Part shown: positions 8,650 through 11,261 of the stretch, piece by piece | How the letters are laid out: each line of letters begins with the position of its first letter | Position numbering within the stretch: the stretch's first letter is position 1 | Assembly (NCBI RefSeq): GCF_000479045.1 | Contig: NZ_KI518090.1 | Span: 1 to 64,000 of the forward strand | Length of the DNA stretch: 64,000 nt | Reading direction: 5' to 3' | Source: Cetobacterium somerae ATCC BAA-474 | GTDB taxonomy: Bacteria; Fusobacteriota; Fusobacteriia; Fusobacteriales; Fusobacteriaceae | The notes under the pieces: generated by a model | Seen by the model: only the letters and a program-made list of their open reading frames with translations | Databases searched by the model: none | Told to the model about the DNA's origin: nothing | Made by a program: the position numbers and the translations under genes

Positions 8650-9672
8650 TTATTTTCCTAGTAATTCTTTTATTTTTTTAATAAAATTATCAACATCCTC
8701 TTTTGTGCTGTCAAAAGATGTAACAAGTCTTACTTCATGGATATTTTCATTCCATATATAGAAATAAAAAGACTTTTGAAGTTCAGAAATTATTTCTTTA
8801 GGTAAAATAGCAAAAACAGCATTAGCTAAAACTTCTTTTGTTACGGGTATTTCAATTTTTTCTAACTCTAATTTTAAATATTGAGCAATATCATTTGCAT
8901 TTTTAGCACATTCAAACCAAATATTGTTTTTTATATAAGGAACGAATTGAGCAGACATAAATCTCATTTTTGAATACAATTGAAGATTTTGTTTTCTTAT
9001 CCAAGAAAATTCTTTAGCTAATTCTTTATTGAAAAATATAAGAGCTTCACCAAACATTAATCCATTTTTAGTACCACCAAAAGATAAAACATCAACTCCT
9101 AAATCTCCAGTCATCTCTTTAAAAGAACATCCTAAGGCTACAGCAGCATTAGAAATTCTTGCTCCATCCATATGTAAAAGCATATTATTTTCCTTAGCAA
9201 AATTAGAAATAGCTTTAATTTCATCTAATGTATAAACAGTTCCATATTCTGTAGTTTGGCTGATTGAAATAATTTCAGCTTTTGGTTTATGAAAGTTATT
9301 TTTAAAAGTTAACCATTTTTTAGCAGCTTCTAAGTCAAGTTTTCCATCTGTACTTGGAACTGTAAGAAGTTGCATACCAGTTATCTTGCTAGGAGCTCCA
9401 GTTTCATCTTGCACAATGTGAGCATTCTCAGGAGTTATAACAGCAGATGCTCGAGCTTTCATTCCTTCTAGTGCTAATACGTTAGCTCCAGTACCATTAA
9501 ATACAAAAAACACTTCAACATCCCCAAATATATCTTTGAAGCATTCAATCGCTTCTTGAGTGATTTCATCTGCTCCATAAGCAGAAACATGGCCGTTATT
9601 AACTTCAATTATTTTTTCTAAAATTTTCTGATGGACACCACTATAGTTATCACTAGCAAAAGATTTTTTCAT
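8650..9672 (-). CDS. ltaE: Low-specificity L-threonine aldolase (PLP enzyme)
   Basis: This 340-residue fold-type I PLP enzyme cleaves L-threonine or L-allo-threonine to glycine and acetaldehyde. The PLP-binding lysine is Lys202 in SFGGTKNG, and Asp169 in HMDGARI contacts the pyridine nitrogen. The N-terminal FASDNYSGVH also matches the family. It stands alone with its own promoter, divergent from the riboswitch-controlled purine permease. A GGAGG site lies about 11 bases before the ATG. Confidence 0.9.
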   Translation of the reverse strand: MKKSFASDNYSGVHQKILEKIIEVNNGHVSAYGADEITQEAIECFKDIFGDVEVFFVFNGTGANVLALEGMKARASAVITPENAHIVQDETGAPSKITGMQLLTVPSTDGKLDLEAAKKWLTFKNNFHKPKAEIISISQTTEYGTVYTLDEIKAISNFAKENNMLLHMDGARISNAAVALGCSFKEMTGDLGVDVLSFGGTKNGLMFGEALIFFNKELAKEFSWIRKQNLQLYSKMRFMSAQFVPYIKNNIWFECAKNANDIAQYLKLELEKIEIPVTKEVLANAVFAILPKEIISELQKSFYFYIWNENIHEVRLVTSFDSTKEDVDNFIKKIKELLGK

Positions 9673-9750: not shown

Positions 9751-9779
9751 TTGACAAAATTGGAAGAAATCTTTAATAT
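9751..9779 (+). promoter_or_regulatory. Promoter for the riboswitch-purine permease transcript
   Basis: A perfect TTGACA (9751-9756) is followed after 17 bases by TAATAT (9774-9779). The predicted start near 9786 lies just upstream of the aptamer. Confidence 0.7.
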
Positions 9780-9803
9780 TTAGGTAAAGATTATATTTAA
9801 TTT

Positions 9804-9870
9804 GAACCATATATACTCCGAATACGGCGGAGAGTTTCTACGAGCTACCTTAAATAGCTTTCTATGGGTC
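9804..9870 (+). promoter_or_regulatory. Purine riboswitch aptamer, guanine type
   Basis: The three-way junction of the purine riboswitch is visible. P1 pairs 9804-9811 with 9863-9870 with one mismatch. P2 pairs CTCCG (9816-9820) with CGGAG (9828-9832). P3 pairs GAGCTA (9842-9847) with TAGCTT (9855-9860), including wobble. The J2/3 core GTTTCTAC and loop CCTTAAA are conserved. The specificity base in J3/1 is C (9862, in TCTATG), equivalent to C74 of guanine sensors; adenine sensors have U. It therefore should bind guanine or hypoxanthine and lies before a purine permease gene. Confidence 0.93.
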
Positions 9871-9923
9871 ACAACTTAGTATTTTTTATTAAGTTTTTTG
9901 ACCTGTTTTTGCAGGTCTTTTTT
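9867..9923 (+). terminator. Riboswitch expression platform: terminator and competing antiterminator
   Basis: The terminator pairs GACCTG (9900-9905) with CAGGTC (9912-9917), followed by a T-run. The competing antiterminator pairs GGTCA (9867-9871, which overlaps the 3' strand of P1) with TGACC (9899-9903), extended by AACTTA (9873-9878) with TAAGTT (9890-9895). Ligand binding would hold P1, free the terminator and switch the permease off. Confidence 0.88.
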
Positions 9924-9974
9924 ATTTTAGTCAGTAATTATTATAAAATATTAAAATAAATCTAGGAGGGAAAC

Positions 9975-11261
9975 ATGGAAAAATTGTTTCAATTAAAAGA
10001 GCACGGAACGACAGTAAAACAGGAGATAATAGCGGGGGTTACAACATTTTTAACAATGGCATATATTATATTTGTTAATCCCTCAATATTATCAATGACG
10101 GGAATGGATAAAGGTGCATTAATAACAGTAACATGTTTAGCATCAGCGATAGGAACGGCTATAACAGCATTTTGGGTAAATGCACCATTAGCTATGGCAC
10201 CAGGAATGGGATTAAATGCATTTTTTACTTTTACACTTGTTTTAGGAAATGGAGCGACATGGGAACAGGCTTTAGGAGTAGTATTTATATCTGGAGTTAT
10301 CTTCTTAGCGCTAACATTTTCAGGATTGAGAGAGAAAATAATTGATGCTATACCAGCTGAGATTAGGTTAGCTGTGGGAGCGGGAATAGGTTTATTTATA
10401 GCTTTTATAGGAATGCAGGGAATGGGATTAATTGTAAGCAATCCAGCAACAGTGGTGGCTTTAGGGAAATTTAATTTAAATGTTGTTTTAGGATTAGTAG
10501 GTTTTGCAATTATGGGATTCTTAGAGATGAAAAAAGTTAAGGGTGGAATTTTAATAGGAATTGTAGCTACAACAGTTTTAGGAATTATATTTGGTGCAGT
10601 TCAATTACCATCACAAATAATATCAATGCCTCCAAGTCCAGCACCAATTGCTTTAAAACTTGATGTTTTAGGAGCAATTAAGCCAATATTTTTAGGATCG
10701 ATTTTTTCATTTATGTTTGTCGATTTATTTGATTCTTTAGGAACTATAATGGCTTGTGCTCATGAAGCTGAAATGATAGATGAAAAAGGTAAGATAAAAA
10801 ATGTTAGTAAAATATTAGAGGCTGATGCAATAGCGACAGTAATAGGTTCTTTATTAGGAACATCAACAACTACAACATTTGTAGAGTCAGCTTCAGGAAT
10901 TGCAGTTGGTGGAAGAACAGGATTAACAGCGCTAACAACAGCGGTATTATTTGCGATTTCACTATTCTTTTCTCCAATTATAGGGGTTGTACCAGCATTT
11001 GCAACGGCTCCAGCTTTAATACTTGTAGGAGTTTATATGTTTAAAAATTTATTGGATATAGATTTTCATAATATAGAAGTTGCAATACCTTGTTTCTTAA
11101 TAATAATAATGATGCCATTAACTTATAGCATATCAATTGGAATTTCTTTTGGATTTATTTCTTACATATTAGTATGTTTATTTGGTGGGAAAATTACACA
11201 TGTAAAGCCTATAATGTGGGCGATAGGATTTTTCTCAGTTGTAGAGTTAATGTTTAAATAA
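9975..11261 (+). CDS. NCS2-family guanine/hypoxanthine (purine) permease, PbuG/AzgA type
   Basis: This 428-residue polytopic inner-membrane protein of the AzgA branch imports purine bases by cation symport. Visible family features are the N-terminal GVTTFLTMAYIIFVNP (about 21-36), the substrate-region segments MAPGMGLNAFFTFT and GAGIGLFIAFIGMQG, and the conserved DLFDSLGT and STTTTFVES stretches. The upstream guanine-type riboswitch supports a purine rather than a uracil or xanthine substrate. An AGGAGGG site lies before the ATG. It is a single-gene transcript ending at a bidirectional terminator shared with the convergent brnQ copy. Confidence 0.92.
   Translation: MEKLFQLKEHGTTVKQEIIAGVTTFLTMAYIIFVNPSILSMTGMDKGALITVTCLASAIGTAITAFWVNAPLAMAPGMGLNAFFTFTLVLGNGATWEQALGVVFISGVIFLALTFSGLREKIIDAIPAEIRLAVGAGIGLFIAFIGMQGMGLIVSNPATVVALGKFNLNVVLGLVGFAIMGFLEMKKVKGGILIGIVATTVLGIIFGAVQLPSQIISMPPSPAPIALKLDVLGAIKPIFLGSIFSFMFVDLFDSLGTIMACAHEAEMIDEKGKIKNVSKILEADAIATVIGSLLGTSTTTTFVESASGIAVGGRTGLTALTTAVLFAISLFFSPIIGVVPAFATAPALILVGVYMFKNLLDIDFHNIEVAIPCFLIIIMMPLTYSISIGISFGFISYILVCLFGGKITHVKPIMWAIGFFSVVELMFK

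Follow-up and report, generated by a model that had tools for sequence, protein, structure and literature searches.

Introduction

The Bacillus subtilis xpt-pbuX guanine riboswitch (RF00167) has a three-way-junction aptamer like that of the element described here, and we take the likeness to extend to a P1 3' arm shared with the antiterminator, an intrinsic terminator, OFF logic and a purine transport target. The B. subtilis pbuG leader, a guanine riboswitch before a purine permease, is presumably similar as well. In the xpt structure, U51 and C74 contact guanine, according to the available text of PMC7287874. According to the available text of PMC11477304, guanine switches have C and adenine switches have U at nucleotide 74; an earlier sequence-only reading of the DNA analysed here had called this C74/U74 rule established, and the rule is indeed stated there. 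The same text reports four guanine switches in Clostridioides difficile, and guanine-binding OFF switches on the purine-type permease genes CD2107 and CD2704. For B. subtilis, four guanine switches and one adenine switch are listed in the available text of PMC2258182.

The window is the whole stretch of 64,000 nucleotides analysed here, from Cetobacterium somerae ATCC BAA-474 (contig C37 of genome G000; genome size 3.07 Mb), a member of the Fusobacteriota. No study of this Cetobacterium element is evident from titles and abstract openings of the literature on purine or guanine riboswitches, Fusobacteria and Cetobacterium. From its modelled folds and its sequence, the element is predicted, with a probability of about 0.93, to be a guanine-sensing riboswitch that turns a purine permease OFF through premature transcription termination.

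Results

Leader and neighbouring genes

The leader, which contains a promoter, an aptamer and a terminator, lies between a PF01212 lyase gene on the minus strand and a PF00860 permease gene on the plus strand. Its features and neighbours are as follows, in window coordinates.

8650-9672, - strand: beta-eliminating lyase gene (PF01212), divergent from the permease gene
9751-9779, + strand: sigma-70-type promoter TTGACA-17-TAATAT (TTGACA 9751-9756, 17-nt spacer, TAATAT 9774-9779)
9787-9884, + strand: purine riboswitch aptamer region, flanks included (RF00167)
9804-9811, + strand: P1 5' arm, GAACCAUA (RF00167 alignment, transcript folds)
9862, + strand: C at specificity position 74, guanine type (RF00167 alignment)
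9863-9870, + strand: P1 3' arm, UAUGGGUC, the switching strand (RF00167 alignment, transcript folds)
9865-9905, + strand: antiterminator, 9865-9871 paired with 9899-9905 around the connector hairpin (transcript folds, duplex shuffles, orthologs)
9873-9895, + strand: A+U-rich connector hairpin, present in both states (transcript folds)
9900-9923, + strand: intrinsic terminator, stem GACCUG/CAGGUC and U6 tract (terminator search, transcript folds)
9964-9969, + strand: Shine-Dalgarno sequence AGGAGG, outside the riboswitch (read from the sequence)
9975-11261, + strand: purine-type permease gene, 428 aa (PF00860, E 4e-50)

The promoter, aptamer, intrinsic terminator and PF00860 permease gene together are a standard riboswitch unit. 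The promoter named in the sequence-only reading is present and matches 10 of 12 consensus bases. Taken alone, it is not beyond chance, because the 321-base stretch contains three promoter-like sites where shuffles average 1.5 (sd 1.3).

The permease scores 22.1 bits against the NCBIfam pbuX model, which has a cut-off of 414, and is assigned to the broad PF00860 family only; the family match supports a predicted purine-type substrate. Among named records, its closest relatives are 89-100% identical in uncultured Cetobacterium genomes, 86% in Cetobacterium sp. 2A and 74% in Propionigenium maris. Orthologs at 89-100% identity are found in 10 of 11 other same-genus genomes. For the eleventh, G001 (82% complete), identity to the best match falls to 58%.

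Aptamer and ligand class

The sequence-only reading had described a canonical purine aptamer with C at 9862 and had proposed a search with the Rfam purine riboswitch model. This description holds. RF00167 matches 9787-9884 on the plus strand over the full covariance model (1-102) with 64.1 bits (E 7.2e-09; gathering score 37), and no other Rfam family attains its gathering score anywhere in the 64 kb window. J3/1 is formed by 9861-9862, and C9862, its last position before P1, aligns with position 74. The P1 helix (9804-9811 with 9863-9870) has a single A.G mismatch (9806-9868). J2/3 is GTTTCTAC, and the purine riboswitch core GUUUCUAC, including U51, is present; the numbering of U51 within J2/3 is the one we presume. 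J1/2 is UAU, as opposed to UAA in the Rfam consensus, and position 73 is U. The C74/U74 rule supports a guanine-type aptamer with a predicted preference for guanine. An adenine-type aptamer is ruled out, as it needs U74 and the window has C9862.

Expression platform

The fold of 9786-9926 has an energy of -34 kcal/mol (z -3.88), and 0 of 200 shuffles are equally stable. The terminator (9900-9917 followed by TTTTTT) is found once, against a shuffle mean of 0.0 (sd 0.2). The P1 3' arm region, taken as the 12 bases that start at 9864, forms a duplex with the terminator 5' side at -8.8 kcal/mol, an energy that no shuffle equals (0/300).

In folds of the growing transcript, sampled every 3 bases, the helices appear in the expected order of P1, antiterminator and terminator. 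P1 has a probability of 0.98-0.99 at transcript ends 9868-9901, the antiterminator 0.99-1.00 at ends 9904-9913, and the terminator 0.87 at end 9916 and 1.00 from 9919. In the full-length transcript, the balance favours the terminator state (-34.0 kcal/mol, against -29.6 kcal/mol for the antiterminator state), and therefore the ON state must be kinetic.

The two-state terminator and antiterminator arrangement of the sequence-only reading is readable, with both shapes clear in the sequence and in most relatives. Two of its details need to be redrawn. It had placed the P1 3' arm at 9867-9871, pairing with the terminator 5' arm; these bases do pair with 9899-9903, but the P1 3' arm itself is 9863-9870. 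It had also proposed an extended antiterminator made of GGTCA and AACTTA with their partners. The pairing of the P1 arm with the terminator arm is retained, but the AACTTA part is not, since the AACTTA/TAAGTT hairpin (9873-9895) is common to both states: its pair 9876-9892 has a probability of 1.00 once the transcript reaches 9895. An antiterminator-specific AACTTA pairing is ruled out by this and by leader L074, which has no such hairpin. Because it is formed in both states, the hairpin is a shared connector. In the folding models, it unites the two antiterminator arms and is itself unswitched.

Conservation across orthologous leaders

Thirteen leaders were counted (the window, L065-L075 and L055). 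One is the window's own, 10 are from other same-genus genomes, and Cetobacterium sp. 2A and Propionigenium maris supply one each; the gene 3' of each leader is an ortholog of the window permease. L050-L054 and L056 share ranges with L065, L070, L071, L072, L074 and L075 and were counted once. The set excludes L076 and L078-L082 (extracted, platforms undelimited), the distant homologs L058 and L060, and L077, in which the core motif was not found. Within one set of 14 loci, 9 carry a purine aptamer, and it is absent from the others (L057, L059, L061, L062 and L063). Pairs were counted from hand-delimited segments because the MAFFT alignment misplaces the variable linker.

With G-U pairs allowed and arms delimited by hand, the antiterminator keeps 7/7 pairs in 12 of the 13 leaders and 6/7 in L055, and the terminator keeps 6/6 in 12 and 4/6 in L075; the leaders are close relatives, with few independent changes behind these counts. 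Antiterminator pair 9869-9901 is U-A in eight leaders, U-G in three and C-G in two. Terminator pair 9901-9916 is A-U in eight, G-C in four and G.G in one. In the five leaders where 9901 is G rather than A (L072, L073, L074, L055 and L075), this base always makes a standard pair in the antiterminator (with U three times and with C twice), and in four of them its terminator partner has changed from U to C. Base 9901 thus tracks two alternative partners, a pattern of substitutions that is good evidence in favour of the two-state model.

The growing-transcript folds show the order P1, antiterminator, terminator in 10 of the 13 leaders. In L072 and L073, other pairings of the P2/P3 strands are preferred, and the maxima are 0.28 and 0.65 for the antiterminator and 0.00 and 0.15 for P1, respectively. 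A longer 5' leader raises pairing at the P1 column of L073 to as much as 0.81. In L075, the terminator never overtakes the antiterminator, which is kept to the end. The L069 terminator is weak (0.68 in one fold series and 0.82 at the last length of another). With these exceptions, the P1 3' arm, antiterminator and terminator pairings are mutually exclusive in the orthologs, as they are in the window. A chance A+U-rich match is ruled out by the score, the fold z-score, the terminator shuffles, the orthologs and the gene context.

Purine riboswitches in the genome

The genome contains 14 purine aptamers over the cut-off, the window copy included, with C at position 74 in 12 and U in two. RF00167 is present in 45 of the 61 genomes compared (own genome included) and in 2 of 14 control genomes; the 12 same-genus genomes have between 3 and 15 matches apiece. 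The next genes 3' of the 14 copies include PF00860 permeases or homologs, AIR carboxylase, GMP synthase, a Bmp/PnrA-like binding protein, MTA/SAH nucleosidases, three amidohydrolases and an adenosine deaminase.

A crude hairpin search over the 14 copies listed nothing for C126, C64b, C118, C115 and C64c, and missed the long C118 hairpin described below. In the window, it listed three hairpins, the antiterminator among them, and only the terminator gave 0/300 shuffles. The eight other genome copies with a listed hairpin gave no comparable signal in the shuffle test (lowest fraction 0.07).

At four loci (L046:2672-3418, L043:1595-2377, L044:1983-3398 and L045:2038-3429), guanine-type aptamers precede MTA/SAH nucleosidase-like and amidohydrolase genes. 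Read by eye, the products start with signal-peptide-like or lipoprotein-like sequences, which suggests purine salvage outside the cytoplasm. A further C74 aptamer (L041:492-601, copy C126) precedes a PF00860 permease gene and has a Shine-Dalgarno sequence directly 3' of P1; with no terminator listed by the crude search, it is perhaps a translational guanine switch. Among the distant homologs, Anaerophilus nitritogenes (L060:1195-1376) has a purine aptamer followed directly by a Guanidine-I match (RF00442) of 60.5 bits, slightly below the gathering score of 63. The arrangement resembles the guanine/PRPP tandem in the available text of PMC9481103.

Two copies are of the adenine type (U74). The first (L048:757-850, copy C115) lies directly 5' of a gene for a permease that is 42% identical to the window permease. 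Its P1 3' arm (UAUUAG) extends into the Shine-Dalgarno sequence (UAUUAGGAGGAG), and both the aptamer and this overlap are retained in 10 of the 10 relatives' leaders fetched (L094-L103). A plain fold of the C115 copy itself is unremarkable, and P1 is not seen in it (z -0.54). The sequence of C115 predicts translational repression by adenine, as an OFF switch at the Shine-Dalgarno sequence. The second (L047:3395-3525, - strand, copy C118) precedes an adenosine deaminase gene (TIGR01430). In its most stable fold, the P1 3' arm is part of a long hairpin followed by a U tract (z -4.89), and this modelled fold is what a pbuE-type adenine ON switch would be expected to show.

Discussion

Computation shows the aptamer, the alternative pairings and the terminator, together with the order in which they appear and how they are conserved. 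By all computed signs, the window element is a guanine OFF riboswitch of an ordinary kind. In the absence of ligand, the nascent P1 would be displaced once 9900-9905 is made, the antiterminator would persist while the polymerase crosses the U tract, and permease would be produced. When guanine is bound, P1 would keep its 3' arm, leaving the terminator 5' arm free, and transcription would stop near 9918-9923. The shut-off of transport put forward in the sequence-only reading is congruent with this predicted OFF logic, for which the model match, the order of folding and the covariation all speak; the predicted identity of the ligand comes from the C74/U74 rule. Hypoxanthine is presumably a second ligand, in line with the behaviour of the family.

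A purine-class aptamer could instead prefer 2'-deoxyguanosine, xanthine or a nucleoside, like some relatives of the class. This is very unlikely here. The UAU of J1/2 and U73 depart from the consensus, and 14 genome copies before varied salvage genes could favour specialised ligands. However, C74 and the J2/3 core are kept, and the UAU looks like a lineage habit because it is present in 9 of the 14 genome copies. Less probable still is a constitutive attenuator, with a terminator so strong at equilibrium that ligand matters little. Without ligand, the antiterminator state lies 4.4 kcal/mol above the terminator state, but the antiterminator is favoured at the transcript lengths where the choice falls, and its pairing survives base changes. 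A guanine-responsive OFF switch is the preferred reading.

As such, the element would be a clean guanine switch in the Fusobacteriota that leaves the general picture unchanged. It offers a well-resolved natural three-way strand competition with covariation, of use in teaching and as a benchmark for kinetic folding. The 14-copy set allows one aptamer family to be compared across expression platforms inside one genome. Put forward tentatively, at slightly under even odds, is a broader proposal in which this enlarged set runs purine salvage in Cetobacterium-like bacteria and adenine is read with both signs. C118 would be turned ON by terminator disruption, and C115 would be a translational OFF switch whose P1 includes the first bases of the Shine-Dalgarno sequence. 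The predicted C115 switch is less usual than the window element, although adenine OFF logic was predicted earlier for a Clostridium botulinum transcript, according to the available text of PMC9481103. If the proposal is true, the new elements are that P1 with adenine bound sequesters a ribosome site directly and that a single genome uses both signs; no report of such sequestration is evident from titles and abstract openings in the literature searched.

Among known systems, the adenine-type pbuE riboswitch belongs to the same aptamer family and differs by U74, where the window has C74. The C. difficile switches on CD2107 and CD2704 are alike by description, in the guanine OFF control of permease genes. 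Compared with xpt-pbuX, the window element comes from a different phylum and has an A.G mismatch in P1 and UAU in J1/2. It is further set apart by the A+U-rich connector hairpin between its antiterminator arms.
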